Part shown: positions 1 through 24,396 of the stretch, one piece after another
How the letters are laid out: the number at the start of each line of letters is the position of its first letter
Position numbering within the stretch: position 1 is the first letter of the stretch
Source of the DNA: a virus
Reading direction: 5' to 3' (one strand)
DNA length: 24,396 bases
Virus record (IMG/VR): IMGVR_UViG_3300021342_000297
Location: 1 to 24,396 of that record
The notes under the pieces: model-generated
What the model saw: only the letters and a program-made list of their open reading frames with translations
Database searches by the model: none
What the model was told of the DNA's origin: nothing
Program-made: the position numbers and the translations under genes

Positions 1-2
1 CA

Positions 3-827
3 ACCACGACCACGACGGTCACATTCTTTTCTGATTATGCGACAGAGACGGTTGTTGGTAGTCCAGTTATCACATATGATACATCCCAAACTGTAAGTTC
101 ACAAACTGTAGAGGACTTGACGGAAAGAAAGACATATATAAACACGATTCTTCAAGCAAATCAGCCGCCAATTCTTCATATTCAACCGTCATTTATTGAG
201 GGTGAGGGGTCGCACGACCATCTATTGTATGAGGATTGTGAATTAGATACTTCAGGCCAATATGCAGGTAGAATGTGTGAACCTATCACTTTGTCACAGG
301 CGAATGAGTTAATCAATGAGCAAAACGCAAACTATGGAATAATATTCTTTGATTCACCGAACGGAGCCGATAGCCATTATCACGCCTATACAATAAAATT
401 TAATCCATACGCAAATGCTGGTGTAGGCGAATTTGTAGTGGATGGAATAAGCCAATATGATATAATTCCAGGAACTGGAACAACCGTTCATACGTTCTTG
501 TTGAGTGGTGGCTACCACGACCACGATTATTGGATGAGCGTAGCAGAATATGTGTCACTATTAACAGGCACTTATGTAACTACACCACAGAGAGATGATA
601 CCCACGCGGCATCATATACTCACGAATTAGTGCTAGAATGGGACGGTGCTACATATAATATAATTTCACAGTCAAGTGACTATGATAACCATAACTTAAT
701 AAGTTATACGGGCTCTGTACCCCAAGGTGGCGAGTGGCTACAAAGTACAGCGGGTGGAGGCTTAGGTGACCACGAACATTCAGTCGTAATTGACGAAACT
801 GATGTATGGCCGAAAGACCCATCATAA
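3..827 (+). CDS. C-terminal part of a His-rich virion (baseplate/fibre) protein, 5' end outside window
   Basis: The reading frame is open from base 3 to the TAA at 825-827 with no stop, so the gene begins upstream; a TTG at 117 is only the first possible start codon inside the window and has no good ribosome binding site. The visible 274 residues are rich in beta-type sequence and carry paired histidines: GSHDH at about 210-221, SHYH near 373-384, GYHDHDYW at about 510-533, SYTHE near 615-630, and DHEH at about 769-780. These form two copies of a module that recurs in the two large fibres downstream. Its position directly before a gp8-like gene is where T4 has gp7, but I see no sequence basis for calling it gp7. 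Its role is probably a structural protein of the baseplate or fibre. Confidence is high that it is coding and phage structural, low on function. Confidence 0.8.
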   Translation, partial: TTTTTVTFFSDYATETVVGSPVITYDTSQTVSSQTVEDLTERKTYINTILQANQPPILHIQPSFIEGEGSHDHLLYEDCELDTSGQYAGRMCEPITLSQANELINEQNANYGIIFFDSPNGADSHYHAYTIKFNPYANAGVGEFVVDGISQYDIIPGTGTTVHTFLLSGGYHDHDYWMSVAEYVSLLTGTYVTTPQRDDTHAASYTHELVLEWDGATYNIISQSSDYDNHNLISYTGSVPQGGEWLQSTAGGGLGDHEHSVVIDETDVWPKDPS

Positions 828-864
828 CAGGCAATAACTATTGATATGTTTATTTAAAAAAACG

Positions 865-872
865 TATAAATA
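865..872 (+). promoter_or_regulatory. T4-type late promoter (TATAAATA)
   Basis: An exact TATAAATA lies in the 91-base gap before the gp8-like gene, 46 bases upstream of its ATG. This is the consensus of T4-family late promoters read by the gp55/gp33/gp45-dependent RNA polymerase. A good Shine-Dalgarno (AAGGAG, about 904-909) follows. An 8-bp inverted repeat (835-842 with 869-876) overlaps the promoter; its meaning is unclear. Confidence 0.75.
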
Positions 873-918
873 GTTACGATTAATTAATCAAACTAAATAA
901 TTTTAAGGAGTTAGCAAA

Positions 919-1929: not shown

Positions 1930-1953
1930 AAACGACTTTTTAGAGTTAAAAGT

Positions 1954-1981: not shown

Positions 1982-2016
1982 TAAAAGTACGAATAATATT
2001 TTAGGATAAATAGCGA

Positions 2017-5000
2017 ATGGCATATAACTTTAACACATCTCCATATTATGATGATTACGATACAGAAGATAGATTTTTAAGAATCTTATTCAATCCTGGT
2101 CGTGCAGTACAAGCCAGAGAATTAACACAAATACAATCAATTCTCCAGAATCAGATGTCGGCTTCGGCTAATCATATCTGGAAGAATGGCTCGCCCGTAG
2201 TTGGCGGAGAAGTTAGTGTTGCAAAAAGAGAATGGATGCAACTCGCTACAACCGATACTACTTGGTTGAATCGTATTGTATATGGTGAAACGTCAAATGC
2301 CGTTGCTGTTATTGAGCAACTGCACGATGATGAGACACAGCCAGTTTATTATTATAGAATTCTTTCTGGAACATTTGCTCAAGCCGAAAACTTATTCACT
2401 TACGACACAGTTTGTGACGGTGGTTTCGATATCAATGGAGATTGTATTGACAACTCTTGGTATGACCCCACTAAAATCTATAAAGCAGGTGTCATTGTTG
2501 GCACTGGACAAGCATTAGAGGCAAGAGTCGAAAATGGAATGTATTGGTTAGATGGATTTTTCACTCCAGTCTTAGCACAAACTATTTTTCTAGACCCAGT
2601 CACTGCTACTCCAACCACGAAAGTCGGATTCGACATTTCGGAAGTTATTGTAGCATCTACGACTGACCCTCGTCTACTTGACCCAGCATCTGGTTTCTAT
2701 AATCAGAACGCTCCGGGTGGAGACAGATATCAGAAAACTCTGACACTTATTAAAGAAGCCGATTCTGCTGAAGCAAATAAGTGGATGTGGTTAATGGATG
2801 TTGATGCTGGACTAATCACTACAAAATACGAAGCGACTGACTATTCACTGCTATCTAATGAAATGGCTCAACGAACTTTTGACGAGTCAGGCAACTATAC
2901 ACTTAATCCATTCCCAATTGAATTTAAAGAAGGCCCTACCGCTGATATGTTTGCACTTAAAGTAGACCCAGGCAAAGCATACATCAACGGATATTCACAC
3001 GAACTCCTAGTTCCTATTACAGTTGAAGCAGACCGGGCACGAACTACTAGACACGTAGCAAACGACCATTTCACTCCTGAATTCGGACCATATTTTGAAA
3101 TCGAATCAGTAACCGATATGAATGGTGTTTTTAATGTCGTTAATAAAGAATACATTATATTCGTAACAGATACTGGACATACGGCTGCCAATACGACTCC
3201 AACAACTATTGGTGTCCATAAACGTATTACTCACGTTAATAAAGTCGGCAATATGTACAGAATTTATCTTGAGAACGACATAGGACTTGATGCAATTTCC
3301 CCTGCACAATATATTGTTTCTGAAGCAAATTTAGGAGTATACGCAAAACTTTATCGTCCTACTGGCGTTGCTGTCAAAATGGGAGTTAATTATCCTTGGA
3401 TGTATAAAGTACATTCAAAGACGGCATCACTATCTCTTGGACAGATAACATATTCTACACAAAAAAATTCTACAGCATCATTATCTGGTGCTCTTGCTTC
3501 TGTTCCTGCAGTTTTCAACGATATGCACTGGGAACGAGTTCTTTATATTTGGGATGAATTCACGAATTCAGTTATACCACAATACGGAACTGTAGCCTCT
3601 GGAGATACTTGGACTGCTGACTTATCAGGAAATACAACTGCACTCATTACTATTGTAGACCAAACAACTGGCTCTGTATCTACGAATTTATCTGGTCATA
3701 ATATATCTATTATGGCAGATATGTATATGTCTAACGCCTCGTGGAGAGCAATATCTTACGGAGAATCAAGTGGTTCTATCGTATTGGCTAATGATACTCT
3801 TACTATTCCACACGCTGTTGCTGGAATAGTTTCTATTGTTGCTCCTGATACATCGGATGTAACCCTAAAATTTAATTTAGAACAGAATATAACTGATACG
3901 ACATTTAATGATGGAGTATTAACTTGGAACGATAGCGTGAACCCAAGCCAGCCTGGTACGTATACAGTAACATACAAAGCATACACATTTGGTAATATTA
4001 CGACTGCAAATTATTTTGCTGTCAACTCATATACTGATGCTGGTATTATTTACGATGAGGTTCCAGGATATCGTGATTCAAAAACTGTAAGTCGTAACCT
4101 TGCTGACCACATAGACTTTAGAGCATCTGATGATGATTATGCAGTTGGTACATATTTGCCTCTGCCTGAGTCTAGTATTTCTGTTTCTTATGATTACTAT
4201 CAACCACGAAGAGACCGATTAGTAATTAACGATGATGGGTATATTAAAATCAAACAGGGATTTCCTTCAGATGACCCTAGGCTTCCAACTGAAGAAATGA
4301 ATGAACTGACCCTGTACAATATGTTTGTACCAGCATACACTTATAATCATAAAAATATTAATGTCAGGCACGTAAAGAACAAAAGATTTACGATGCAGGA
4401 CATCCGTAGCATTGAAAATAGACTAGAAAATTTAGAGTATTACACAGCCTTAAATCTCTTGGAGAAGGCTACTGCCGATATGCAAGTTATTGATACCGCA
4501 GGATTAGAGAGATATAAGAATGGTATGTTAATCGACCCATTCGTTGACCACGGTATTGGAGATGTAATAGACTCTGATTATTATTGTGCCATATATCCAG
4601 AAGCAGGAATTTGTACTGTCCCGTATGAAATGTACGGTATGGACTGCGAAGGTGGTGTAAATACCAATATTAAAACAAATAATCTGACATATACACTTGA
4701 TTTCACAGTACAAGAAGCGTGGATTACACAGCCGTATGGTTCACAAGTAATTAACTTGAATCCATTCGCAAGAAAATCTTGGGTTGGATTCTGTACACTT
4801 ACTCCACAATCTGACACGTGGTTTGAAGAACTTTATATGCCTGACGTTATTATTCAAAACGAAAATAACAATGAAGTACGCCAGCAAGTAGAAACTTTTG
4901 GAACACAAACGAGATGGAATGCTTGGCAGACTGAATGGTCTGGATGGGCTAATATCGGCGGAAGAGAAAATGTACGAGGTGGAGAAGAAGTAATCTCCTG

Positions 5001-7455
5001 GGAAAGTAATCTTGGATTTGGTGGAGCGATGGGACAATTCCAGGGAACTATGCAAGATGCGTGGGAAACTGGTACTCACTGGGGCTCTGGCACCATTATG
5101 AACCGACCTACTCGACAAAGAACTGTTTGGAGAACTGTAACAAATGTTGAAACTTGGGACCAACAGCAACAAGAAACCGAGAATCAAGCAAGAAGCGGAA
5201 CAAGGTCTTGGATGGATATCAATGATATTCGCACCCAAGTTGGTGACAGATTCGTAGACTCTTCTGCTATCCCTTGGATGAGGTCCGTTCCTGTTACTAT
5301 TGACGTAGAAAAACTACGACCAAATACTGTAATGCACTTTGAGTTTGATGAAATTAATGTTGATAACTATATCACGCCATCAGGCGGAAGTATGGGCGAC
5401 CCAGTTATGACTAACAGTATTGGACAAATTAATGGTGCTGTACTACAAATTCCATCAGAGGGTCCAGAGGGAGTACGAATCAGAACGGGTATGAAGATAC
5501 TTGCTATGAAAGATAATTTCATTCAACCAGAATTAATGACTACTCAAGCAGTAGGTGTATTTACGTCTGCTGGTACTCTTGATAGACGCCAGAGAGACAT
5601 TCTATCTACTTTAGAAAGTTATAGAGTTGATGAATCGATTAGAGATGAACGGGCTATTTTAGGTGGGACAAGAACTATACAGGAATCTAGAAACGGACTC
5701 ACAAACGGAAGAGAATCAAGACAGATTACAGAGTATTATGACCCAGTAGCAGAATCCTTTCTTGTTGCTAATTCAGAAGGCGGAGCATTCATAGATTCAA
5801 TTGACCTGTTTTTCTGGTCAAAAGATGATGAATCAACTCCAGTCCGAGTAGAAATCAGAACAATGATAAATGGTTTCCCAACACCAACACAAATTCCACT
5901 CGCATCTAAGATGCTTTATCCAGACCAAGTTGCTACTTCTACGGATGGAGCCGTTAGCACGAGATTCCAATTCGATGACCCGATTTATCTAATGAATGAT
6001 ACAGAATATTGCTTTGTTGTAATATCAGATTCATTAAAATATAATATGTGGATTTCTGAATTAGGAGAAGTTGACTTATTGTCTGGAAACTATATTAGTG
6101 AACAACCATATCTTGGTTCGATGTTTACTTCACAGAATAACTCTACTTGGACTCCAGAACAATTAAAAGATATTAAATTTGATATGAATAGATGTCAGTT
6201 TAGTCCTACTGGTGACTTACAGATTAATATGAAGCCTTTCAATGGAATTAAAGAAGCGGCCTCATTTATGCCTAATTTTCAGCCACTTGTTCTTTCAGGA
6301 ACAACTTTGGGAATCGAGGCTATTATTAATGGCGACACAAATGACATTATTGGTGGTGTCCTAGATAATGAAGATGTAGTCCTAGATGATGTAGTTGCTC
6401 TTGATGGCTCTCATACTATCGCATCTGGTTATCAATATACTCCATTATCATATAATACGACTTTTTCAACAGAAAATCCAAATGTTTCTCCTGTTATTAA
6501 TAAAGAGAGACTATCGACCGTTCTTGTTAATAATATGATATGGGACACTTCACCGATACCAAAGAATGAATATGGAATTTATCAGTCTAAAGATGTTAAG
6601 TTGAGAACTTTTGCTAACGACTTACAAATGTGGTTAAGTGTTCAATCAGTTCCTAATACATACGTAAAATGCTACTATGATACAGGTACAATTATTCCAA
6701 GATATATTACAATACAACCATACGCAAACACAGTCACACACGGTGATTACAACGTAAACGATTTTGAACAAGAATACGCATATATTTATCCAGGAGGCAC
6801 AGATAGTCCTGAAAATCATATTACAAATCAAAATGCAGGCATCGCGGCCTGGAATGGTATAATTCCAGAGAGTGGTGATGAAGCCATCAAATCTACTGCT
6901 TATGTGGATGGTGATGACGACCCAGCAAACGAAACAATGATGCACTTAGTTGATATAAGTAATATGAAAGAGATTATCAGAACGTACTTTATTTGTACTG
7001 AAGATTTAACGGGTGTCACCGCAGACTCAACGAGTGCTGGTATCGGTACCGACCTTGACGAATACGAAGTCGATGATATATGGTTCGGAAGTTGGGATGA
7101 TGACCTTAATAGACATTTCTATAAGAAAATCATTCTTCCAGATGGAACATACGCTAAAGAAGAAGTACCAATTCTAGAGATTGATTCAATCGTAGATGCA
7201 GAACACCCTGATTATCCGATTGGTCTGGCTGTTATAGAAGAAGCGCCATTATCTTGGAGAGAGATGAAAGATAGTGGAAATACTGTAACAAATCCATCCA
7301 TCGTAACGGATATGGAGTTTGTAGAACATACATTCACTCCACTGAAGAAAGTACCTGCTGAATTTGACCATTTTAGAATTAAAATCGAATTACACACGAC
7401 CCATCGATGCTATTTACCAGCAGTTCGAGAGATGCGTGTCCTGGCACTGACATAG
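2017..7455 (+). CDS. Giant DUF4815-type virion structural protein
   Basis: This 1812-aa protein belongs to the DUF4815 structural proteins found next to gp8 in marine T4-like phages. The N-terminus has the family signature: FNTSPYYDDYD, then ILFNPGRAVQARELTQIQSI (about residues 23-43), then an 'N.SPV.GG' turn. Further marks are the segment IRSIENRLENLEYYTAL (about 796-812), GLERYKNGMLIDPFVDH (about 830-846), VDSSAIPWMRS (about 1080-1090) and a C-terminal beta domain with TEYCFVVISDS (from 1329) and ISEQPYLGSMFTSQN. It is probably a baseplate-attached or peripheral tail protein; the exact virion position is not established to my knowledge. The region about 950-1070 is Trp/Gln/Gly-rich and low in complexity. 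A short Cys pair with Trp (C133, C143, W148) resembles the Cys/Trp motif of the neighbouring fibres. Shine-Dalgarno is AGGA at 2003-2006. It overlaps nothing and is followed closely by 7467. Confidence 0.85.
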   Translation: MAYNFNTSPYYDDYDTEDRFLRILFNPGRAVQARELTQIQSILQNQMSASANHIWKNGSPVVGGEVSVAKREWMQLATTDTTWLNRIVYGETSNAVAVIEQLHDDETQPVYYYRILSGTFAQAENLFTYDTVCDGGFDINGDCIDNSWYDPTKIYKAGVIVGTGQALEARVENGMYWLDGFFTPVLAQTIFLDPVTATPTTKVGFDISEVIVASTTDPRLLDPASGFYNQNAPGGDRYQKTLTLIKEADSAEANKWMWLMDVDAGLITTKYEATDYSLLSNEMAQRTFDESGNYTLNPFPIEFKEGPTADMFALKVDPGKAYINGYSHELLVPITVEADRARTTRHVANDHFTPEFGPYFEIESVTDMNGVFNVVNKEYIIFVTDTGHTAANTTPTTIGVHKRITHVNKVGNMYRIYLENDIGLDAISPAQYIVSEANLGVYAKLYRPTGVAVKMGVNYPWMYKVHSKTASLSLGQITYSTQKNSTASLSGALASVPAVFNDMHWERVLYIWDEFTNSVIPQYGTVASGDTWTADLSGNTTALITIVDQTTGSVSTNLSGHNISIMADMYMSNASWRAISYGESSGSIVLANDTLTIPHAVAGIVSIVAPDTSDVTLKFNLEQNITDTTFNDGVLTWNDSVNPSQPGTYTVTYKAYTFGNITTANYFAVNSYTDAGIIYDEVPGYRDSKTVSRNLADHIDFRASDDDYAVGTYLPLPESSISVSYDYYQPRRDRLVINDDGYIKIKQGFPSDDPRLPTEEMNELTLYNMFVPAYTYNHKNINVRHVKNKRFTMQDIRSIENRLENLEYYTALNLLEKATADMQVIDTAGLERYKNGMLIDPFVDHGIGDVIDSDYYCAIYPEAGICTVPYEMYGMDCEGGVNTNIKTNNLTYTLDFTVQEAWITQPYGSQVINLNPFARKSWVGFCTLTPQSDTWFEELYMPDVIIQNENNNEVRQQVETFGTQTRWNAWQTEWSGWANIGGRENVRGGEEVISWESNLGFGGAMGQFQGTMQDAWETGTHWGSGTIMNRPTRQRTVWRTVTNVETWDQQQQETENQARSGTRSWMDINDIRTQVGDRFVDSSAIPWMRSVPVTIDVEKLRPNTVMHFEFDEINVDNYITPSGGSMGDPVMTNSIGQINGAVLQIPSEGPEGVRIRTGMKILAMKDNFIQPELMTTQAVGVFTSAGTLDRRQRDILSTLESYRVDESIRDERAILGGTRTIQESRNGLTNGRESRQITEYYDPVAESFLVANSEGGAFIDSIDLFFWSKDDESTPVRVEIRTMINGFPTPTQIPLASKMLYPDQVATSTDGAVSTRFQFDDPIYLMNDTEYCFVVISDSLKYNMWISELGEVDLLSGNYISEQPYLGSMFTSQNNSTWTPEQLKDIKFDMNRCQFSPTGDLQINMKPFNGIKEAASFMPNFQPLVLSGTTLGIEAIINGDTNDIIGGVLDNEDVVLDDVVALDGSHTIASGYQYTPLSYNTTFSTENPNVSPVINKERLSTVLVNNMIWDTSPIPKNEYGIYQSKDVKLRTFANDLQMWLSVQSVPNTYVKCYYDTGTIIPRYITIQPYANTVTHGDYNVNDFEQEYAYIYPGGTDSPENHITNQNAGIAAWNGIIPESGDEAIKSTAYVDGDDDPANETMMHLVDISNMKEIIRTYFICTEDLTGVTADSTSAGIGTDLDEYEVDDIWFGSWDDDLNRHFYKKIILPDGTYAKEEVPILEIDSIVDAEHPDYPIGLAVIEEAPLSWREMKDSGNTVTNPSIVTDMEFVEHTFTPLKKVPAEFDHFRIKIELHTTHRCYLPAVREMRVLALT

Positions 7456-7466
7456 GAGAAGGAAGA

Positions 7467-7682
7467 ATGGCTAAAAAACCAACCTACACAAAAGACCCCT
7501 ATACTGGTGCTGTAGTATTTACCGATGTTGATGCTTATGCCCAACGTAAAAAGGTGATAGAACGACAGAAGTTATCAGAAAAGACGAAGAAGGATTCAAA
7601 GCGAAGTATAAATAGTATGAAGAACGAAATTAAAAGCCTCAAGAAGTTGGTAAGCGACTTTATTGAGGGAGGCAAGAACTAA
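7467..7682 (+). CDS. Small hypothetical protein with C-terminal coiled coil
   Basis: This 71-aa basic protein starts at ATG 7467, preceded by AGGAGAAGGA; an upstream in-frame start at 7407 would lie inside the DUF4815 gene and lacks a comparable site. The first 30 residues (KKPTYTKDPYTGAVVFTDVDAY) carry a 'DPYTG..VFT..DAY' stretch. The rest is helical and Lys/Glu/Ser-rich with heptad-like hydrophobic spacing (INSMKNEIKSLKKLVSDF), typical of a short coiled coil. It sits 11 bases after the DUF4815 stop and ends one base before the next start, so translation is probably coupled. Its function is unknown; a small virion or assembly factor is plausible from position only. Confidence 0.75.
   Translation: MAKKPTYTKDPYTGAVVFTDVDAYAQRKKVIERQKLSEKTKKDSKRSINSMKNEIKSLKKLVSDFIEGGKN
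7607..7614 (+). promoter_or_regulatory. Late promoter motif inside the 71-aa gene
   Basis: An exact TATAAATA lies inside the coding region of the small gene at 7467, 69 bases upstream of the start at 7684. It could give extra late transcription of the 64-aa gene and the giant fibre at 7898. It may also be chance within an AT-rich Ser-Ile-Asn-Ser codon run, so confidence is moderate. Confidence 0.45.
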
Positions 7683-7683
7683 T

Positions 7684-7897: not shown

Positions 7898-10800
7898 ATG
7901 GCACACTATACAGGTCACACATTCACTTTAACAGAGTTGAATACAATCGAGCAACAGAAGAGTGCATTTCTAGACTCTTTGAATATTAAGTTGGATGCTC
8001 CCGACCTTCTAGTTAAAGACTTGGCATTAATGCTCAAGTCTCTAGAGGTAATGGAGAATTTAGAGCATCTACCAGAATATAAAGACTTTTTAATTAATGT
8101 AGCAAATCGCTCGGCTGATTTTGTCTCTCCGACGGAATTGATACCAAATGGTGGTCTTGATATTACATATGAAACATCTAATCTAGTACAGAATAGTTCA
8201 TTTGCCGTAGATGCGTTTGAGACAGAATTGCTCAAGAATAGTGGCTTTGATGTACCAGTAGATTTAGCACGACCTTGGTCGAACGGTATAGCATACCAAT
8301 TTGATGTTCTCTTTACTGAAGGTACACAGATTGTTCAAGCATATACTGACGGATTACAAGAAGCCCTTACTTGGTTCGAGACTCCTTTAAAACCAAATAC
8401 ACAATACAAATTCGCATATGACCTATCAGTAGCAGACGTTAACTGGGATTTATCCAGTGGCGCACAGAATATGGTCGATATGCTGGCTCCAGACACAGCA
8501 ACATTTTCAGAAGTTGGTGGTGGACCAGACCCAAGAGTATTCATTTGTTCGGTAGTGGAAGACCCACTTCTTATACGTCCTACTTGTAGTTATTGTACTA
8601 ACAATCCTTCAATCACTGACGAAGCGACTTGTACAGGCGTTTCAGAAACTTGGGTAGTAGATACACCACAATATTTAACGTCAATCACTGCAATGGAAGC
8701 CGCTTGTACAGGCGCAGGCTCACATTGGGATGGTGGCGCAATCAACGACCCGAATACACAAACGCACACTCTCGTACCATATCATATTGAGGCACGTGAG
8801 GGTGACACAATTATATTTAATAACCCTATAACTTCTATATTAGTACACAATGCAGTTTCAGATGACAATATTTCTTTTGCTTCACCTGACTTAGAGCCAG
8901 GAGAAGATTGGAGTTGGGTTGTAGACGGATATCACGACTTATATTTTCACTGTACATTCCACCCTCTTGAAGAAGGGCGAATGACAACGACCACAAATCA
9001 CAGATTTGTTTATTCTATTGACCACGGTTTAAATCCTGGTGATACAATTAAAGTTCCGATTAACTACGGCGCAAATGTTGCCCTACCATCGCTAAGTAAC
9101 TCATACAAAATTAACTTGACGATGCCTCAGCCTTGTACTTCATTAGGTGGAGCGGGTAACCAAAACGTAGTAGAATCACTTTACCACGACTTGAGTCTTA
9201 CAGACTTAGTAGCATTCCAGTCTGGTCCAGTTGAAACTAATCCAAATGCGACAGTCCCAGTTGATGTTATTTTCCAAGGCGGAGATGACCCACAAACGGT
9301 TGACGCAACAGCGGACGTTTCAGTTGTCGGTGGTGTTGTAACTGCACTAACACTATTAACTGGTGGTTCTGGATATCGAGGAATTCCAACGATGTACATT
9401 ACTGGCGGTGATGGCGCAGGTGCTGTCGGTGAAGTAACATTTGATGGTTCACTTGAAACAATTACACTCACAGATATTGGTGCCGGATATACTTCTGCAC
9501 CTACTATAGAAATTTCAGTGCCAGCAACTCCTCTTATTGGAGATGGTGGAACAGCGGTTCGAGCCGAAGCAACCTGTACTATCACTGGCGGTGGAGCAAT
9601 CGATGTAATAACGATAACAGTGGCTGGTTCTGAATATACAGGCCCGCCCGTAATCTCTTTCATAGGTGGTGGGGCAACCGTTCAAGCAATTGCAGAGGGT
9701 GAAATTACAGGTTCTATAACTGCACTAACACTACTGCAAGGTGGTACTGGTTATGGTTCTGGTGACGGGTCAGTCGGCTTAGGCGAAAGACAATGGGAAG
9801 AATATATTATCACCGCAGTTCAAAAAGGTGATGCACGAGTAGACGTATTCTTTGATGACGTTAATGTTATCGGACATATTCATACTGGAGAATTGACAAC
9901 GGCAGAATATGCCACAATTCAGACAGGTGCAAACGTAATTTCAATGTCTTCCACGGACGGTGACGGTTCGGGTGAAAACTCACCTCACGCTCACTCTGTT
10001 ACATTCAATTGGGACCCAGCCCTAAACGCTGGTGCTGGTGGACTGTATGTTGTAGGTATGACAGGTTCACATACTCACGGTATGGAGAACTACTACGATA
10101 TATCTGGTGGAACAAATATTGAATTAACAAACTTCGGACATTATCATCAAATCTTAATTGACTTGGCTGATGAAGCAACGCTTAAAGCAAGTCCTCTTAC
10201 TGGAGTCACACAAGACCAAGACGGAACTTGGAGTGCTACGGGTGGTGCCACATTAATCAGAACTTCTGACTACGGCACTTCAGACCCACAGCATTTCCAT
10301 ACGCTTGAATTAGGTTGTCTTACTCCTGCAGATGATATCTATTTAATTATATCAATTGACCAACATATTCACGATTTTGATAGAGTCTGGTATCCAGGTT
10401 CAAGTCAATTCACAATCGGTCAATACGACTTTTCAATGGGTGGAGATGATAATAATCCTACATCTATTGCAGACCCATTCACAAATATAGTAGGGTATGT
10501 GAAGAAAGAACGTGGAATCGAATGTGATTCTCACGGTCTGGAAGCAGGTCAGAAAATACATTATCAAAATGTTTACAACGGTATCCATCACGGAAATACG
10601 AACTACTTTGTAGATTTCATAGTCGATTGGGACCACTTTGTACTGACAGAAACAGTTATTTATCCTTTAGCGAATGCTCCTGGAACTACACCAACAACAT
10701 TCAATGTTGAAGAAGCATACACAGTTGTTGCAGATATGGCATCGTATAGATTTGAAGTCGAAAGAGACATAACAAATCACTTCGGTGACCCAGGTGCTGG

Positions 10801-15661: not shown

Positions 15662-18600
15662 ATGTCCGTAACACTATCAAGCATAACTACTGCGGTTGAC
15701 CCGTTTAATGACATACCAGATATTACATTTGATAGTATCGATGTTTCGGCGTTTACCGAAGAAGTAGAAATATATACAAATACGCCGGCGGTAATGATAC
15801 CGACTAAATTGAACGCTATGGCGACTTCAATGAAGACCTGGCTCAATGATAATATTTCCGCTCCTTTAGAAAATCAACAGAATACCTTCAAAAATGAGGT
15901 GGTTGTCCGTACCAATACGGCAATGAATGCTGTAGAAACCTATATGAACGATGAAGTTCAGGGTTTCGTAAATACTACATTCGTACCTTGGGCTAATGAT
16001 GCAGGAAACGTCCTGTCTAATCACGCTAATACTCTTGAGAACAACGTAACAACTACGATGACTCAATTGCAGGCTGATTATACACTTCACGTCCTGGCAC
16101 AAGATGCAATTATCGCCCAAGCACTAAATGATATACTGGAAAATCTAGCCCAGTATACTTCTGGCGCTGCCAACTCTGGTTATTCTATTCACGCAACAAA
16201 CGAATTACTCGCCGATATCACAATGACTCGGGAGATTGGCTTTACTGATTATATGTACAATTCAGAAGGCAATATTACTTTCGCTGAAGAAGGCTCTAAC
16301 ACTACTCATCACATTAGTTATCATCCATCTACTGGAGCGATTATGTCTTTTGGTGAGACAATGCAAATTGTAGGTGAGCCTCGACCTTTCGTTCAACATT
16401 TGAAATTAGAAAATGAAGCATCTACTGGTTCAACTTCAGTCGCAAAAATTAAAGCATATGATGCCTTTAAGAATACTTCAGGTGGTGGAGTACACTCATT
16501 CAGAGTCAGTGGTCACGAAGTAAATGGCGACCCTGCAGTCGAACTAACTATTTTAAATAATACTTCAGTTCCTGACGTAGACAATCCAGAACTTATACTA
16601 AGACGTGGTGTTGATGCCGCGATTATGTTCGGAAATATTGATGCGGGCGATTATATTAAAATTACTGAAATAGACGGCACTACAATTTATAATGGTGGGG
16701 TTGTCGGTCAATATGCAGAAGATTACGATACAGTTTTATTTAAACCCAATGCAAGTTATTGTCACGATATGACATCCGCAGTAACTGGTTGGGGTGTTCC
16801 TGCAAGTTTTCACGCAAGTGACGTAGACTCATCCGGCGGTGACCACGATACGCCAACTAAATGCGAAGAGTATGTTGACTCTATTGTCGCACTTCTCGAT
16901 GACTTCTCACGTACTTATGAATATGGTATAGCAGGCGAATCTTATGTCGGTTCTCTTTCTGACGGACTGATTTACAAAGTTTATATCAATGATGACTCAG
17001 GTTTCATTGATTCTTACGCATACACAATTGATGCAAATGGCAAGCAAGGCACTGGTGCTATACTTAACGCTATCTATGATGATGGTGTTTCAGATGTAAC
17101 GATTACATCTGGTGGAACCAAGTTCTCTATGAACGCGGCCGCTAGAGCGTTTGATTTGGGTGCTGTAGATGTTACTGGTTCTTCTGAAACGAAGGCAATA
17201 GCGACTCATACTCTTAAAAACGGAATGGTTGATACTATTACTGTTGATATGGGTGCCCCAGGCGCTGGTTATACTGGATATTGGGAAGTTATGGTAGAAG
17301 ATGGCGGAACAGGTCATACGCATACAATTCAATTAACACAAACAGAAGTTAATGTGATTAAAGGTGGTGGTCAAGTTACTTCTACGACTGTAGATGCTGG
17401 CCATACTCACGACCAAGTAGTCGGATGGAATGATTTCAATAACTCATTCTATTATGTTTCTACTTCAGGTGCTCACAATCATCCAATTGGTGTTGCAACG
17501 CACGAAGTTAATCCTTTAATAACCCTTTCAGTTACAACTTCAACTGGTGGACTGGCAGATGGCGATGTCTATCTGACTGAAACTGGCGAACTTGACTATG
17601 TTACTGTTACAAATGGTGGAGCCGACTATGTAGTCGCAGACACAATTGCGATTTCCGGTGGTGCTCCTTCAGTAGTTGGGACAGTAACTATGGACTTAGT
17701 TGACGGTGGAATAGCGGGATTCTCTGTATCAAATGCTGGTACAGGATATACTGATACGACTGCTAAAACAGTTGCAGTTATAATTCAGAATAACGCATTT
17801 AGCCCATCAACGATTTCTGCGAATGTTGGCGATACCGTCACCTTCCAGAATCTTGACATTCAGCCTCATACTGTTACACATACAGATGGTATGTTCGACT
17901 CAGGAGATATTCCTCAGAACGCAACATTCACTTATGTTATTACCAAAGAAACAGAGATTACAGACAAGTACGACCTCTATGATGATAACAATGTAGGCAC
18001 AACCGCTACTCTTTGGGTGCGAGATAATTCTGTCTATGTTGATATGGTAACTACAACGGGTGGTGGAGTTAGAGGGCTTGCGACAGTAGACTCAAACGGA
18101 AATATTCTTAACATTGCTGTAGACAGACCTGGACAAGGTTATGTTTCAGGCGATACTGTAAGAATTATTGATGTATCTGGTCCTGGTGAAGGTGCTTATG
18201 CTGACATAGTTACAGACCGTAGTATTGCGGTAGTTAATGTGACTGCGCCGGGCACTGGCTATTCATCCGACACACAGGTTATAGCAATAGATAACACGGG
18301 CTACCCAATTTGGGATGAGCCACACGCAAACATTATCGGAACTTCATTTGGTTCAGGAGCAATCTTGAGACCAGTACTTACGACTGAAGCAGTTTGTTCA
18401 GACTCACAGTATCTAGACGAGACAACTTGTTTGGCTGCCACTGAAACTTGGACGACTGTCGGTGAAATGACTGGAGTGACTGTAGTTGACGGTGGTTCAA
18501 ATTATACCGATATAACATTCGTTATTAATGACCCAGCGGAAACAGGTAATGGTGCGACTTTAGAAGCAGACCAAAATAATGTAGTTACCGCAGTTAACTT

Positions 18601-19240
18601 TACTGCAAGAGGCGAGAATTATAATGAACCATATCTTCTCGTTCAAGATGGTGGCGGATTACTAGGCTCTAATCTCTACGGCGGACCGACAGTTGGTAAT
18701 GGCTTTGTTGGTACAGTTGGTTTAAACAACGGTATCGGAGCAGTTACGATTGTCGAAGATTGGCAAGACTATGAGCCAGGATATACTAGGGTTATGGTCA
18801 TCGATGAACACGCAGAACCTACTGGTTACGGTGCTGAAGGCACTGCTACGCTAGGTGTTGCGGGTAACATCTCTGATGTTGAGATGACTAATCCAGGTAC
18901 AGCATACAAAACACCAGTTGTGTTAGTTGCTGGACCAGTCATATACACTGGAGCATCAATTAATAATGTTAATACTGATTTAGCACTATATGGCCCAGAG
19001 GGAAATACCAACGGTTCTCCTTTCTCTGCTAATAATGCCGCAGGTACTAACTACAAAAACGGTATAATGATTCAATTTGAGAATCCAAATGGACATACTT
19101 TGAACGACTCTTGGTCATTCAAAACGATGTCTTGGACATTGGGTACTCCTGCGTCATTGCTATATACGTCTAGCCGATATGATGGTAACCTCGAAAATAT
19201 GCGAGGCATCATAACTCTCAAAGATGTTTGGGATGTGTAA
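15662..19240 (+). CDS. Second large tail fibre, 1192 aa
   Basis: Residues 1-160 are largely helical with heptad-like spacing (for example KLNAMATSMKTWLNDN and ALNDILENLAQY), like a fibre head or coiled-coil stalk. The rest is beta-rich: a domain about 190-460; GxGY-type repeats (about 470-550, 650-700, 790-900 and 935-1120; for example VTAPGTGYSS, SNAGTGYTD); one HxH module (about 550-615: GHTHTIQLT, GHTHDQ, AHNHP); a cupredoxin-like domain (about 704-785) that keeps the first His (H739 in IQPHTV) but lacks the C..H..M loop; and one C-x10-C-x6-W unit (about 912-930). It shares its module set with the 2563-aa fibre upstream, so the two probably assemble as proximal and distal fibre parts or as alternative fibres. 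The start follows TTGGAGA and tandem late promoters. Fold assignments are inferred from motifs. Confidence 0.83.
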   Translation: MSVTLSSITTAVDPFNDIPDITFDSIDVSAFTEEVEIYTNTPAVMIPTKLNAMATSMKTWLNDNISAPLENQQNTFKNEVVVRTNTAMNAVETYMNDEVQGFVNTTFVPWANDAGNVLSNHANTLENNVTTTMTQLQADYTLHVLAQDAIIAQALNDILENLAQYTSGAANSGYSIHATNELLADITMTREIGFTDYMYNSEGNITFAEEGSNTTHHISYHPSTGAIMSFGETMQIVGEPRPFVQHLKLENEASTGSTSVAKIKAYDAFKNTSGGGVHSFRVSGHEVNGDPAVELTILNNTSVPDVDNPELILRRGVDAAIMFGNIDAGDYIKITEIDGTTIYNGGVVGQYAEDYDTVLFKPNASYCHDMTSAVTGWGVPASFHASDVDSSGGDHDTPTKCEEYVDSIVALLDDFSRTYEYGIAGESYVGSLSDGLIYKVYINDDSGFIDSYAYTIDANGKQGTGAILNAIYDDGVSDVTITSGGTKFSMNAAARAFDLGAVDVTGSSETKAIATHTLKNGMVDTITVDMGAPGAGYTGYWEVMVEDGGTGHTHTIQLTQTEVNVIKGGGQVTSTTVDAGHTHDQVVGWNDFNNSFYYVSTSGAHNHPIGVATHEVNPLITLSVTTSTGGLADGDVYLTETGELDYVTVTNGGADYVVADTIAISGGAPSVVGTVTMDLVDGGIAGFSVSNAGTGYTDTTAKTVAVIIQNNAFSPSTISANVGDTVTFQNLDIQPHTVTHTDGMFDSGDIPQNATFTYVITKETEITDKYDLYDDNNVGTTATLWVRDNSVYVDMVTTTGGGVRGLATVDSNGNILNIAVDRPGQGYVSGDTVRIIDVSGPGEGAYADIVTDRSIAVVNVTAPGTGYSSDTQVIAIDNTGYPIWDEPHANIIGTSFGSGAILRPVLTTEAVCSDSQYLDETTCLAATETWTTVGEMTGVTVVDGGSNYTDITFVINDPAETGNGATLEADQNNVVTAVNFTARGENYNEPYLLVQDGGGLLGSNLYGGPTVGNGFVGTVGLNNGIGAVTIVEDWQDYEPGYTRVMVIDEHAEPTGYGAEGTATLGVAGNISDVEMTNPGTAYKTPVVLVAGPVIYTGASINNVNTDLALYGPEGNTNGSPFSANNAAGTNYKNGIMIQFENPNGHTLNDSWSFKTMSWTLGTPASLLYTSSRYDGNLENMRGIITLKDVWDV

Positions 19241-19281: not shown

Positions 19282-19316
19282 GAATTGAATATTAAAGAAC
19301 TGGAGAAAATACAACT

Positions 19317-20231
19317 ATGGATATTTTAACACTTGGTAAGATGAACCAAATGGCGAAAGATGTCGACCAAACCTTGGAATATCTAGCCAATGCGACATTC
19401 TCTGCCCTAAAAGACGTTTGCGATTTCCAAGAAGGAAACATTACAACGATTGAATCGTGTGTTGCCCAAGGAATCCTAGACTTAGAGGCTGCCGGAGGCG
19501 GTGGCGGTAGTGGGCCACAATACGTATTGTATGTTGGTTGTAATCATAACAGCGGACAGACTGGTCAAGAAGGAATAAACTATGGCGGACATCAATGCAA
19601 CTGGACAGTTCCAGCAGATGTAAAAGGAATAAAATTTGAAATGTACGGCGGAGGGGCCTCAGGTTGGGGTGCTTGTTGCTGTATGATGGTTGGAATTCCT
19701 GGTGGTGCAGGTGGTTATATAGTAAAACACTTAAACGAAGAAGATGGCCATTTTACTGCCGGTTCTTCAGTATATTCAATATGTTCAGCAGGAACAGGCT
19801 GTTGCTATCCTGGTAGTAGCATAGGCAGAGGACATACGAGTTACGTTACTGGTCCTGGTCTTTCAAACTTCTGTGCGATTGGCGGGCATCAAGGTCAGCA
19901 TCAATGTAGAAGTTTTAACTGTTACACTTGTTGTCATACTTGTTTCGGTTGTGCCCACGTTTACGGTGGGGATTATGGTCAACCGGGACGTTCATCTTGG
20001 TTACATAGTAACCATTATTGTGCAGGCGGTCTGTGGCAAGTTGCTTCAGGTGCCCCAGGTCCTCTTGGAACTGGCGATGCACATTCCCCAGATGCGTGTA
20101 CTTTTGGTATGCACTCCGGTGGTTCACCTGCCTCACCTGGTGTTGGCGGGTATAGCGGAATGACTTCGGGTAGTTGTTGTTGCTCAAAAGCCGGTGGTGG
20201 TGGCGCAGTAGTTGTCACATATTGGAAATAA
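19317..20231 (+). CDS. Gly/Cys-rich adhesin (candidate receptor-binding tip), copy 1
   Basis: This 304-aa protein opens with MDILTLGKMNQMAK and a helical segment to about residue 60, then a Gly linker (AAGGGGGSG), then a Gly- and Cys-rich body that ends in a beta strand (GGGGAVVVTYWK). I count 22 Cys, many in clusters (ACCC, CYTCCHTCFGC, SCCCS). The core GPGLSNFCAIGGH (about residues 179-191) is shared with copy 2. Gly-rich bodies of this kind occur in distal receptor-binding proteins of T4-like phages (the gp38 adhesins are a comparable Gly-rich class), so a role at the fibre tip is likely but not shown by homology. Translation uses TGGAGA. The following gene is a predicted fibre chaperone, which supports a fibre role. 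There is no signal peptide or membrane segment. Confidence 0.75.
   Translation: MDILTLGKMNQMAKDVDQTLEYLANATFSALKDVCDFQEGNITTIESCVAQGILDLEAAGGGGGSGPQYVLYVGCNHNSGQTGQEGINYGGHQCNWTVPADVKGIKFEMYGGGASGWGACCCMMVGIPGGAGGYIVKHLNEEDGHFTAGSSVYSICSAGTGCCYPGSSIGRGHTSYVTGPGLSNFCAIGGHQGQHQCRSFNCYTCCHTCFGCAHVYGGDYGQPGRSSWLHSNHYCAGGLWQVASGAPGPLGTGDAHSPDACTFGMHSGGSPASPGVGGYSGMTSGSCCCSKAGGGGAVVVTYWK
19863..19885 (+). repeat. Conserved core repeat, copy 1 of 2 (partner at 21571-21593)
   Basis: These 23 bases are identical to 21571-21593 in the second adhesin and encode the SNFCAIGG core. The first ~40 bases of both genes (19317 on and 21019 on) are also nearly identical. Together they flank divergent loops, and could act as homology for swapping tips. 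Confidence 0.7.
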
Positions 20232-20266
20232 GACAAATTAAAAGTTAATTAGGAGATATATTAAAA

Positions 20267-21019
20267 ATGGCTAAATTGAATATTGAAATGACGTATCCAG
20301 TGCCGGATAAGTATCTATCCCAGAGTACGGCGGCCGGTAATACTGCTACGTTGTCTTATCTAGGGCCTGACACAATCTGGGTGCAAGTATACAAAGACGG
20401 AGATAACAAAGGGAAATGGAATACCAATCCCATAAAAACGAATTATCACGATGATGGTGATATCGAAGGCGAGGATGACGATATGACCGCGGCAATCGAA
20501 GCACTTCCAGTGCCTCTTGATTCGGCTCGAATCAAAATCGATTGCAACACGAATCCACATCTTTGTGCCATATGGACTGATTGTCACACTGTAGGCGATG
20601 ACACAGGTTCTTATGAAAATCTTCCCCAAATACAAGATAAACTTCCTGACGGAACTGTTTATTACGAGCGTCCTCGAGACGATAAAATTCCACCTGACCA
20701 CGTATGGAATCCACAAGAATGCACTTGGAATTTCGATACAGAAGAGTGGGACTTAGTATTACGTAAGCCTAAAGACTTCGGTATGCCCGAATCTTGGGAT
20801 GAAATTCGTGCAAATAGAAACAGAGACCTCGAAGATACTGATATCAAAACACTTTTACCAGACGGTGATGAAAAGACTGCTTGGGAAGAGTATCGGCAAC
20901 TATTGAGGGACATTCCTCAGACTTACGCCGGTGCAGAATTGCATACTATACCACGTCCAGAATCTCCCGAAGATGTAAAAAATAATGCGGCGAGAGCGGC
21001 TGAAGAGGAGAACAACTAA
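20267..21019 (+). CDS. Tail-fibre assembly chaperone-like protein, copy 1
   Basis: This 250-aa, strongly acidic protein has the C-terminal signature of phage tail-fibre assembly chaperones (the Phage_tail_APC / Caudo_TAP type): IRANRNRDLEDTD (about residues 181-193) followed by AWEEYRQLLRDIP (about 205-217). The N-terminal part (about 1-100) forms a probable beta domain that differs from copy 2 and may recognise its own client. It ends in a charged Ala/Glu tail. The start at 20267 follows TTAGGAGA. Its stop overlaps the next start by one base (TAATG at 21017-21021), so it is translationally coupled to the second adhesin. Such proteins help fold or trimerise fibre tips and are usually absent from the mature virion. 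The client is probably the adhesin encoded just upstream. Confidence 0.72.
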   Translation: MAKLNIEMTYPVPDKYLSQSTAAGNTATLSYLGPDTIWVQVYKDGDNKGKWNTNPIKTNYHDDGDIEGEDDDMTAAIEALPVPLDSARIKIDCNTNPHLCAIWTDCHTVGDDTGSYENLPQIQDKLPDGTVYYERPRDDKIPPDHVWNPQECTWNFDTEEWDLVLRKPKDFGMPESWDEIRANRNRDLEDTDIKTLLPDGDEKTAWEEYRQLLRDIPQTYAGAELHTIPRPESPEDVKNNAARAAEEENN

Positions 21020-21993
21020 TGGATATCTTAACACTTGGTAAAATGAACCAAATGGCCAAGAACACTAACCAAGCGTTAGAGTTGATGGCAAATCACGTAT
21101 ATGAAACACAGTCTGAAATTGCAGAATTTCAAGCAACCAATGAAACTAATATTGATTCGGCCGTCTCGACGGGATTGTCAGAAATTCAGACTTTGATTGA
21201 TACTGGAGTTTCATCTGAACCCCAAAAACACTTTTATATTTACAACACAAATCATTGGTCAGTGACTAATGGTGGTTGTTGCTTACATTGGACTGTACCT
21301 GCAGGAACTCAAATAATTACATTTGAGATTCTATCTGGTGGCGGCCCAGGTGGCTCTGCCGGACACGATTATGACTCAGGTCACGGTGGTGCTGGTGGTA
21401 ACTATAATGAAAAAACAATCTGTCTAGATGCAGGACATTTTAACTCTGCTCCTGGCAGTGAATCTTCTTATACATTATGTTCCGGTGGTACTTCACAATG
21501 TTCTTGTTGCACAACTTGTAACAGAGCGTGTAGACACGGTTGTACATCTTATGTAAACGGACCTGGCTTATCAAACTTCTGTGCGATTGGCGGTCACGGT
21601 GGTTCAACATCTTGGGATGTTAACTCTTCTTGTTATAACTGTCACATTGGAAATCTTCAGTGCGATAAAGGTAACTACAATGCAGGTTGGGTATCACATA
21701 ACTGTAACGAAGCAACGCAAGGTGGAGATATGTGTTTCAGAGGTATTAATGGCTCACACGATAAACAGTATGACTGTTGTTCAGACACGCACTCATATAG
21801 CGGTGGACCTTCGGGACCATTTGCAGTATCAGGCACTGCTGTTAATAAGCATTGGTGTACTGGTAATCACGCTTGTTGTTCTACTCATTCAGCCTTCCCT
21901 GGTGGGGGTGGTGGTGGTTACGGAACAGGTGCAGGAACTCCTTGTGTAGGTGGTTTTGGCGCAGGTGGCTTAGTTAAAGTGACTTACCAATAA
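21019..21993 (+). CDS. Gly/Cys-rich adhesin (candidate receptor-binding tip), copy 2
   Basis: This 324-aa paralogue of the gene at 19317 shares the first 14 residues, the Trp-Thr-Val-Pro strand near residue 90, the core GPGLSNFCAIGGH (about 181-193) and the Gly-rich C-terminal strand (GAGGLVKVTYQ). The loops between are different in length and sequence. I again count 22 Cys, but at mostly different places; the two Cys in the N-terminal helix of copy 1 are both Ala here. A run of six Cys (SQCSCCTTCNRACRHGC) precedes the core. It is translationally coupled to the preceding chaperone (one-base overlap), with GAGGAG inside that gene as ribosome binding site. A second chaperone follows. It is likely an alternative or partner receptor-binding protein; this is inference from architecture and position. 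Confidence 0.75.
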   Translation: MDILTLGKMNQMAKNTNQALELMANHVYETQSEIAEFQATNETNIDSAVSTGLSEIQTLIDTGVSSEPQKHFYIYNTNHWSVTNGGCCLHWTVPAGTQIITFEILSGGGPGGSAGHDYDSGHGGAGGNYNEKTICLDAGHFNSAPGSESSYTLCSGGTSQCSCCTTCNRACRHGCTSYVNGPGLSNFCAIGGHGGSTSWDVNSSCYNCHIGNLQCDKGNYNAGWVSHNCNEATQGGDMCFRGINGSHDKQYDCCSDTHSYSGGPSGPFAVSGTAVNKHWCTGNHACCSTHSAFPGGGGGGYGTGAGTPCVGGFGAGGLVKVTYQ

Positions 21994-22019
21994 TGAATAA
22001 ATTTAGGAGATAGAATAAA

Positions 22020-22760
22020 ATGGCACACGTACAAAAAATCGTAACTTACGACTTACCAGACGAGTTCGAGATGCTGTCACCGACTAAAGCGATGGGTAAA
22101 ACGTCTACGCAAAGTTATGATGGCCCTTCTACTCTCATCCTATGGATTGACAAAGAGTCGCAAGATATTGAACAGACTTGGGACAAAGACGACTATACAG
22201 ACCGTCCTGTACCATTAAATTTAGAAGTCAAAGAACTTAAAGCAGACACAGACGAGAATACGGTTAAAATCGGAATTCTCTACGGTGGCTTTGCAGAGAG
22301 AAAACTTTATGAAGTTAGAGTCGGACCAGTTGATGAGGACAATATTATCATTGCTGACCCCTCGGACCCACGGCAAATCTTTTCAGAAAATGATATCATA
22401 GATGACTATACTAAACCTCTAGTGTTTAGGTCTGATTATCGCCGAAGAGATGATGACTTCATTCGTAAAGAACGAAACAGTAGACTGAAACAGTCCGATG
22501 CCAGAATCGCAGAAGATATGCCTGAAGAAGTCAAAGCAAAATGGATGGCTTATCGTCAGAAATTACGAGATATCCCTGCAGATTGGTCCGCAGTACCTAA
22601 CCATATGGTTAGATGGCCAACTGACCCAGACGGAGAGTATGATGACCCGTATGCTCGGAACGAAGATGAGAACCACGATATCATTATGGTGGCAGACCGC
22701 ACAGCGGATGATGCCGATGCAATGGCACAATTAACACCTATTGATGGTATTGACGAGTAA
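22020..22760 (+). CDS. Tail-fibre assembly chaperone-like protein, copy 2
   Basis: This 246-aa acidic protein is a paralogue of the one at 20267. The shared signature is in the C-terminal third: FIRKERNSRLKQSDARI (about residues 149-165), then KWMAYRQKLRDIPADW (about 174-189), matching the 'R..RN..L..SD...W..YRQ.LRDIP' pattern of phage tail assembly chaperones. Both copies begin with a short 'TYP/TYD..P' strand, but the N-terminal domains differ, as expected if each serves its own client. The start follows TTAGGAGA 26 bases after the second adhesin. It is the last gene before a strong terminator, so it closes the fibre block. An acidic tail ends the protein. Confidence 0.72.
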   Translation: MAHVQKIVTYDLPDEFEMLSPTKAMGKTSTQSYDGPSTLILWIDKESQDIEQTWDKDDYTDRPVPLNLEVKELKADTDENTVKIGILYGGFAERKLYEVRVGPVDEDNIIIADPSDPRQIFSENDIIDDYTKPLVFRSDYRRRDDDFIRKERNSRLKQSDARIAEDMPEEVKAKWMAYRQKLRDIPADWSAVPNHMVRWPTDPDGEYDDPYARNEDENHDIIMVADRTADDADAMAQLTPIDGIDE

Positions 22761-22787
22761 GAATAAGAAGTTTTAAGTAGTATATTG

Positions 22788-22815
22788 AGGGCTTCCCTAG
22801 TGGGAGCCCTTTTTT
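22788..22815 (+). terminator. Rho-independent terminator
   Basis: AGGGCT-T-CCC (22788-22797) pairs with GGGAGCCCT (22802-22810) around a TAGT loop, with one bulged T at 22794, and is followed by six T (22810-22815). It is a classical intrinsic terminator that closes the fibre/chaperone block. Confidence 0.85.
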
Positions 22816-22821
22816 ATTGCG

Positions 22822-22829
22822 TATAAATA
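22822..22829 (+). promoter_or_regulatory. T4-type late promoter
   Basis: An exact TATAAATA begins 6 bases after the terminator T-run and one base before the -35 box of a sigma70-type promoter. It could give late transcription of the glycosyltransferase/carbamoyltransferase unit, 70 bases upstream of the ATG. Confidence 0.6.
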
Positions 22830-22830
22830 C

Positions 22831-22859
22831 TTGACAAGATGTACTGATTATGTTATAAT
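22831..22859 (+). promoter_or_regulatory. Perfect consensus sigma70-type promoter
   Basis: TTGACA (22831-22836) and TATAAT (22854-22859) are separated by exactly 17 bases, the ideal bacterial housekeeping arrangement. Such strong host-type promoters normally drive early genes in T4-like phages. It lies upstream of the glycosyltransferase gene and just after the terminator, so it starts a separate transcription unit. Confidence 0.85.
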
Positions 22860-22898
22860 AGTCGTAATTTTAGGTAATTAAACAAGTGAGGTGAAGTG

Positions 22899-23978
22899 AT
22901 GAAACCGAGTCGTTCAAAGGCTTTCTTTATAAATGGTGGTGCCGGTCGTGTGCTATCATCAATCCCTGCATTAGAAAAATATCACGAAGAATCAGGTGAC
23001 CCTGACTTTGTTATTGTTTGTGAAGCAGGAATGGATTTCTACAGAGGACATCCAGTTCTCCATAAACACGCATACGAAGTATGGCACAAAGGACTCTTTG
23101 AAACTATCAGAGACAAAGATGCCGTATCTCCTGAGCCCTATCGTGTAAACGAATACTACAACCAACAATGTTCTCTTGCTCAAGCATTTGATATCGAAAT
23201 CAATGGTCTAGAGGACCCACGAGAACTTCCAGTACCAACTGTCACATTAAACAAAATGGAGACTGTTACTGGATATCAAACTATCCAAGAAATTAAAGCG
23301 GGTGTTAATAAAGACAAGGCTATAATTATTCAGCCGTTTGGCCGTACTATCACCAAAATGGGAGAACACCTCGTAGATGGTACATCCCGCTCTTTTGAAC
23401 TTGGAAACATTACTAATATTATTGGTATACTCCGTGAGAAGTATGCAGTAATTATAATGAGTGAAATTCCTTTTAATGTACCTCAAAACGAGAAACATCC
23501 AATAGCATTTCCAAAAGAACCCAATCTCCGACTATGGGCTGCGATGATTAATTCAGCGGACCATTTCTTGGGTTGCGATTCTGTTGGACAACATATTGCT
23601 AAAGCATTAGGCAAAACAGCGACAGTTGTTGTTGGTTCTACTGTACCTATCAATATCACTTATCTTGATGATGACGATTTTGATGTCATAGATTTTGGTC
23701 ACGAGAAGGGAAGAGAATATTCTCCTATCAGACTAACTATGGATGATGAGATAGATAGGGGTAATGATAAGATAATGATGTTGGAAACTATGGAAGAAAA
23801 GAGAGTCGTAGACTCTTGTGTAGAATTCTTAGGAGAATCAAAACCATTCTCTGGCAAATTTGAGCCAAGTCAACCAAACCAATCCTGTGGTACACCAGCA
23901 CCGACAACTACAGAAGAACAAAAACCCAAAGACTTACCGAACTATGATTTCAACACAACGAATTTATTGGAGACATAA
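22899..23978 (+). CDS. GT9-type (heptosyltransferase-like) glycosyltransferase
   Basis: This 359-aa protein resembles the ADP-heptose:LPS heptosyltransferases (glycosyltransferase family 9, GT-B fold). The N-terminal FINGGAGRVLSSIPALEK (residues 10-27) matches the family's 'GGlGDvl..tPal' loop. The C-terminal GCDSVGQHIAKALGK (225-239), followed by VVGSTVP, matches the 'G.DSgp.H.A.Alg.P...lfG.t.P' donor-binding region; H232 fits the family's conserved His. In the family the enzyme adds a sugar from a nucleotide donor, usually to LPS core. Length is typical, with a 40-residue low-complexity Pro/Thr tail. I chose ATG 22899 because GAGGTG lies 5 bases upstream; GTG 22896 is too close. The carbamoyltransferase starts 3 bases after its stop. 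The substrate is unknown; host surface glycan is the likeliest. Confidence 0.65.
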   Translation: MKPSRSKAFFINGGAGRVLSSIPALEKYHEESGDPDFVIVCEAGMDFYRGHPVLHKHAYEVWHKGLFETIRDKDAVSPEPYRVNEYYNQQCSLAQAFDIEINGLEDPRELPVPTVTLNKMETVTGYQTIQEIKAGVNKDKAIIIQPFGRTITKMGEHLVDGTSRSFELGNITNIIGILREKYAVIIMSEIPFNVPQNEKHPIAFPKEPNLRLWAAMINSADHFLGCDSVGQHIAKALGKTATVVVGSTVPINITYLDDDDFDVIDFGHEKGREYSPIRLTMDDEIDRGNDKIMMLETMEEKRVVDSCVEFLGESKPFSGKFEPSQPNQSCGTPAPTTTEEQKPKDLPNYDFNTTNLLET

Positions 23979-23981
23979 GAT

Positions 23982-24396
23982 ATGAGCCAGTGGATAGCAG
24001 GTATAGCCAGAGGCCATAATGGTGGCGTTTGTTTATTGAAAGATGGAGAAATCGTTTTCTCTGTAGAAGAAGAGCGATTGAGTCGATTTAAATACGATGG
24101 CGCCCCATTAGCCTCTATGACTAAAATACTTGACTATACAGACAAGTTGGATTATCTAGTAATTGCTCATACACAACCAGATGAGAGCCGACTAGATTAT
24201 AGTGGAGATACTATTTATGCCGGCTTGGCACGAAAATTAAGGCTGATTGAAAAGCCAGACCAAGTATTAGATATGCACAAATGGCACCATAAGATGCACG
24301 CCTCTTGTTCTTTCTATAGGTCTGGTTTTTCTTCTGCCGTTGCAGTTACTGTAGATGGCGCTGGAACATTTATTCCAATGCAAATGAATAACGAAG
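23982..24396 (+). CDS. NodU/CmcH-family carbamoyltransferase, N-terminal part
   Basis: The frame runs from ATG 23982 to the window end without a stop (138 residues); the gene continues beyond. The N-terminus GIARGHNGGVCLLKDGEIVF followed by SVEEERLSRFKYDG is the typical start of NodU/CmcH-family O-carbamoyltransferases ('H..s..ll.dG.i....eEER..r.K'). HHKMHASCSFYRS (H102, H103, H106) and TVDGAG (from 123) match the family's 'HH..HA.SAfy.S.f....' and 'DG.G' metal/nucleotide-binding elements. The full family protein is usually about 550-600 aa. It transfers carbamoyl from carbamoyl phosphate, via an adenylate, to a hydroxyl, typically of a sugar. It is coupled to the glycosyltransferase (3-base gap; GGAG inside that gene at 23969-23972 as ribosome binding site). 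Such genes are known from other marine T4-like phages. Confidence 0.87.
   Translation, partial: MSQWIAGIARGHNGGVCLLKDGEIVFSVEEERLSRFKYDGAPLASMTKILDYTDKLDYLVIAHTQPDESRLDYSGDTIYAGLARKLRLIEKPDQVLDMHKWHHKMHASCSFYRSGFSSAVAVTVDGAGTFIPMQMNNE

Follow-up and report, generated by a model that had tools for sequence, protein, structure and literature searches.

Absence of Type II-like palindromes from a lineage of T4-like marine phages with a probable SAR11 host

We analyzed a stretch of viral DNA of 24,396 nucleotides, hereafter the window, in which the tetranucleotides GATC, CATG and AGCT do not occur. Together with the pattern of missing words in related contigs, this makes it very likely, in our view, that host restriction led the phage lineage to eliminate Type II sites, with a host that most likely lies within SAR11 (Pelagibacterales).

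Three palindromes missing from the window

An earlier, sequence-only reading of this DNA had reported that GATC is absent and had put the expectation at about 88 sites. The computed count was indeed 0 over the 24,396 bases, against 88.4 sites expected under independence, 83.7 under a maximal-order Markov model and 87.6 under codon shuffling, so the depletion holds against both of the comparisons that the reading had proposed. That reading, however, had caught one third of the main signal, as the absence of CATG and AGCT was overlooked. CATG was also found 0 times (84.1 expected under the Markov model and 84.0 under the codon shuffle), as was AGCT (49.9 and 59.3, respectively). Across 100 shuffles, each of which kept every protein and its codon usage, the lowest counts obtained were 74 for GATC, 66 for CATG and 45 for AGCT. 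The depletion is therefore significant against the composition and codon nulls for all three words throughout positions 1-24396. No other tetranucleotide had a count of zero, and since all three are palindromes, they are absent from both strands.

The signature of this removal is visible in the codons. Every Asp codon that precedes a C is GAC (79/79), versus 163/491 elsewhere in the window, and every His codon that precedes a G is CAC (56/56). ATC was never used for Ile following a G (0/56), nor GCT for Ala following an A (0/140), and none of the 154 Met codons has a preceding C. The junctions that would create a site can be re-coded with no change to the protein, and the codon shuffle, in which proteins and codon usage are preserved, expects the sites to be there; thus, selection has acted on the DNA words themselves. 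In the window, sites are removed by the choice of codons wherever a junction would otherwise form one.

The window is 97% coding, with every long gene on one strand (+). It opens with the 3' end of a long structural gene (3-827), open at the window edge, which by synteny corresponds to the ~2400-aa gene of its relatives. This is followed by genes for a predicted baseplate wedge subunit (919-1929; phrog_977, E 5e-39), an 1812-aa structural protein (2017-7455; phrog_358, E 1e-291), a virion structural protein (7407-7682; phrog_473, E 6e-10), and two further structural proteins of 2563 aa (7898-15589) and 1192 aa (15662-19240), both with homologues in the state A and state B contigs described below. 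Two copies of a tail-fibre-assembly-like protein (20267-21019 and 22020-22760; phrog_9740/phrog_4912) precede a protein of family phrog_8954 (22896-23978; E 2e-132) and the 5' part of a Nol-like carbamoyltransferase gene (23982-24395; phrog_1601, E 5e-28), which is open at the other window edge. The region 19317-22760 holds a gene pair duplicated in tandem, comprising a Cys/Gly-rich protein starting MDILTLGKMNQMAK and then the tail-fibre-assembly-like protein.

The content of the window is thus that of a T4-like baseplate and tail cluster with tail-fibre-assembly genes and a carbamoyltransferase. Homologues of gp17, gp18, gp20 and gp23 are present in a 99-kb relative (G006), the window itself spanning only the baseplate/tail-fibre region. 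By gp23, the closest isolates are Pelagibacter phage HTVC008M (54% identity), the OM43 phages Melnitz (53%) and Pelagibacter phage Mosig (50%), and no phage record matched the window at the DNA level. Its genes mark the window as part of the genome of a T4-like marine phage with kinship to pelagiphages (Kyanoviridae-related).

Avoidance states among related phages

A normal GATC count in the rest of the genome would have argued against the sequence-only reading. As the record consists of these 24,396 bases only, we counted sites in relatives instead, using the 1812-aa protein (phrog_358) both as the query and as the basis of the tree of avoidance states. Relatives with a 70-100% identical homologue of this protein mostly had 0/0/0 for GATC/CATG/AGCT; with the gp23-based finds included, such contigs of 59, 50, 50.6 and 42 kb were recovered. 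In 189 kb of non-redundant coding DNA from relatives, the observed and expected counts were 0/~700 for GATC, 2/~546 for CATG and 3/~533 for AGCT. Longer words were also scarce in the same DNA, namely ATGCAT (0/63), AACGTT (1/53), TTCGAA (2/74), CGWCG (5/167) and WCGCGW (0/47); GCWGC (37/204) and WCCGGW (15/91) were depleted less strictly. By comparison, GANTC (1.14) and GGWCC (0.99) were not reduced in the 189 kb. ATGCAT, AACGTT, TTCGAA, CGWCG and WCGCGW all have the symmetry of Type II restriction sites; the most strongly avoided longer words are palindromic, several with the W centre typical of such sites, and the avoided words as a set are palindromes of 4-6 bases, like orthodox Type II targets. 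Loss of sites in phages is of a known kind; its breadth here is unusual.

Relatives found through gp23 and the 1812-aa protein fall into three states. In state A, GATC, CATG and AGCT are all absent or nearly so; in state B, CATG is absent and GATC and AGCT are present at reduced to near-normal levels; in state C, all three are present. Over 71 A and B loci, some of which share a contig or lie on near-identical ones, CATG sums to 23 versus ~2618 expected. GATC and AGCT were both absent from 37 of these loci and both present in 32; the other two lack GATC and carry a single AGCT, and the reverse was never seen. Their counts are rank-correlated at 0.95 over the 71 loci and at 0.71 inside state B. 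GATC and AGCT avoidance thus switch on and off together, apart from the older CATG avoidance, with few independent switches.

In the tree of the 1812-aa protein, the B lineages branch below A, and one state B pair (L013/L015) is nested within the zero clade with support 100/100, having regained GATC and AGCT and not CATG. In the gp23 tree, state A requires two changes. The simplest reading of these trees would be that CATG was lost first and GATC and AGCT jointly thereafter, with one branch regaining both. We considered whether the regained sites in L013/L015 are mainly synonymous, which is unsupported at 68-70% nucleotide identity, most new sites lying in variable positions. The first ~750 bases of L013 (L013:1-750) carry 7 of its 14 GATC sites, which suggests a segment imported via recombination.

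Sister lineages do not all avoid the same set of words. In a 124-kb B contig, CATG occurs twice versus ~380 times expected. The 99-kb B contig G006 nearly lacks ACTAGT (0/17), TCTAGA (1/33) and CTGCAG (1/23) and has ATGCAT (22/28). Words missing from the window occur in relatives of the B and C lineages, which would be free of the corresponding pressure. Of the 8 CATG in the otherwise nearly CATG-free G006 contig, 7 lie in its final 2 kb (L061, 97285-99104), where GATC is absent; this end segment may be either a recombinant stretch or a chimeric contig end. Another lineage of distant relatives (L022-L041) has a different missing word, CCGG, with 0 in each locus for a summed expectation of ~60.

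The probable host and its restriction genes

The host is probably SAR11, to judge from kinship with the isolates, a permuted tmRNA and the clade of an iron permease. Two related contigs carry a circularly permuted tmRNA (Rfam RF04321, 88 and 79 bits). The genes are located at L044:18175-18567(-) and L070:18419-18861(-), and their tags read VTVDSETYALAA and GNDYNYALAA. Melnitz, which infects OM43, nevertheless carries a tmRNA of alphaproteobacterial type (PMC9004378); host lines of this sort therefore fall short of proof.

Three zero-state contigs encode an FTR1-type iron permease (L044:11384-12040(-), L070:14615-15277(-) and L065:2285-2941(+); Pfam E 1.5e-25). Its best full-length genome matches are in Pelagibacteraceae (47-48%), others reaching at most 39%, and there is a partial match of 53% in a contig binned as an archaeon. 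The phage and Pelagibacteraceae versions form one clade (SH-aLRT 100). Phage records contained no FTR1 match better than ~31% identity, and the phage gene is possibly a new iron-related auxiliary gene. The 1812-aa protein offered no host link, having no relatives in bacterial genomes.

Published work describes restriction-modification in one SAR11 genome in >100 (PMC7029224), and a second study found none in the SAR11 genomes studied and GANTC depleted in about half of pelagiphages (PMC9516812). In contrast to this picture, Type II genes do occur in Pelagibacterales. Among 327 Pelagibacterales genomes, 61 have a cytosine-5 DNA methyltransferase over cut-off (loci L270-L294 among them) and 20 a D12 adenine methyltransferase, some of these matches being weak (loci L295-L304 among them); one D12 group is Dam/DpnM-like, albeit under the NCBIfam cut-off. 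Candidate endonuclease genes lie beside methyltransferases in L275, L276 and L288, among others. Genes adjoining the methyltransferases encode Eco47II-, TdeIII-, HNH_2-, PDDEXK_5- and AlwI-like candidate endonucleases, the PDDEXK_5 and AlwI matches being below the curated cut-off, and a Type II endonuclease called by PADLOC also neighbours a Pelagibacterales methyltransferase.

The sequence-only reading had proposed looking for GATC-specific restriction genes in candidate hosts, and our searches of the likely host order returned no GATC-cutting enzyme: the DpnII family gave none over cut-off in Pelagibacterales, and the MutH/Sau3AI family 0/297 genomes. The ICEA family also gave none over cut-off, in a search run without a positive control. 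Searches of Pelagibacterales for these three families, which cover known GATC and CATG enzymes, gave no endonuclease specific for GATC, CATG or AGCT. On its host side, the restriction model is plausible but unproven.

Restriction, its rivals and known systems

Palindromic targets of 4-6 bases, sets that differ between lineages and the lack of a phage match to four methyltransferase families together form the pattern expected of orthodox Type II avoidance, and orthodox Type II palindromes are the class of sites that phages avoid (PMC6286503). We propose that the phage DNA is unmodified and that host strains carry nucleases cutting the avoided words. Incoming phage DNA with a site would be cut, purging newly arisen sites, and after a change of host the pressure would be lost and sites could come back through mutation or recombination. 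Selection by restriction, which the sequence-only reading had favored, remains the best explanation, although a single MboI/DpnI-like system does not suffice as the whole cause, as CATG, AGCT and several palindromes of 5 and 6 bases have gone as well. The further claim of that reading that the phage DNA is unprotected by modification is consistent with our search for a protective methyltransferase: none of four Pfam families (PF02086, PF05869, PF00145 and PF01555) matched in the related contigs, which are incomplete genomes.

A phage might also lack sites that its own endonucleases cut when destroying host DNA, so as to escape self-cutting. Near-absolute absence over whole lineages would be required if a nuclease were at work in each infection, the early-gene regions are only partly covered by the contigs, and a 1000-aa protein of the 124-kb relative G021 matches HNH_3 weakly, under the cut-off. 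We nevertheless consider this unlikely. No site-specific nuclease was found among the state-tracking genes, the conserved uncharacterized A/B genes or the right-arm genes of G021, the latter pointing to replication and metabolism functions, and about ten avoided words would call for about ten nucleases. Genes specific to the zero state, examined as candidate nucleases, instead encode oxygenase-like proteins, FTR1 and small proteins, while an opposite-strand gene pair next to the neck genes, considered as a restriction cassette, turned out to be a heptose kinase/adenylyltransferase (HldE-like) and a cupin. G021 also encodes DNA gyrase/topoisomerase subunits and a tryptophan-halogenase-family protein (L161:13840-16949 and L160:5279-6976).

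The alternative raised by the sequence-only reading, that GATC avoidance stems from a host process acting through GATC (Dam methylation, MutH repair, SeqA or a regulatory binding protein), gains something from the low GATC of more broadly related isolates (HTVC008M 55/272, Mosig 8/140 and 5/104, Melnitz 15/179). It is very improbable, however: CATG and AGCT are just as absent from the window, which rules out such a process as the whole cause, GATC and AGCT move together, and none of the 297 Pelagibacterales genomes has the MutH family. Least credible, to the point of being negligible, is that the absence stems from base composition, from codon or mutation bias, or from an artefact of the assembly or library. 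The Markov and codon-shuffle nulls contradict it and rule out chance, base composition and codon bias; moreover, contigs from many metagenome datasets agree, and the same collection includes close relatives that do contain the sites.

Restriction avoidance of this kind has precedents. In the survey of Rusinov et al. (2018, PMC6286503), total or near-total loss of sites is reported in roughly a tenth of viral genomes; the avoided class there is likewise orthodox Type II palindromes. The survey pairs phages with known host enzymes, whereas here many words are lost at once and no matching host enzyme was identified. Staphylococcus phage K (Herelleviridae) is described, where PMC6532042 cites O'Flaherty 2004, as having eliminated GATC against Sau3A. 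The likeness is that of a large virulent myovirus with an unmodified-type genome and without GATC (phage K, 0/61 expected in the first 30 kb). In contrast, phage K keeps AGCT (82/100) and CATG (71/84) over those 30 kb, while our T4-like marine phage has lost three tetramers and several longer sites. As with GANTC depletion in some pelagiphage clades (PMC9516812), loss of motifs in these probable SAR11 phages tracks phage phylogeny, but it concerns other palindromes, GANTC being slightly over-represented (1.14).

The T4-like marine Kyanoviridae isolates HTVC008M, Mosig and Melnitz, 50-54% identical in gp23, are also GATC-poor (about 0.05-0.2 of expectation), with CGCG near zero, and Mosig has a tmRNA, as do relatives of the window. 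Unlike the window, they keep CATG; AGCT is normal in Mosig and at about half of expectation in HTVC008M and Melnitz. Isolates have purged palindromes of their own (L152-L155, L189), including ACGT (0/51) and TCTAGA (0/8 and 0/9) in Mosig and TCGA (0/34 and 2/33) in HTVC008M.

What is noteworthy is how broad the loss is, that it went in steps, and that it probably took place in SAR11, the phenomenon itself being of a known kind. Sister lineages still lack CATG yet differ by degrees in GATC and AGCT, a natural series in which to study the action and relaxation of restriction selection. We raise tentatively, as somewhat less than an even prospect, that wild SAR11 possess an extensive, patchily distributed range of Type II enzymes that purged about ten sites lineage-wide, such that a phage's missing words would reveal which enzymes its hosts carry. 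If the host is SAR11, the most abundant marine bacterial group, these phages would be evidence that bacteria described as nearly devoid of restriction in fact restrict strongly and at multiple specificities, and the set of missing words would provide a testable fingerprint linking uncultured phages to their hosts.
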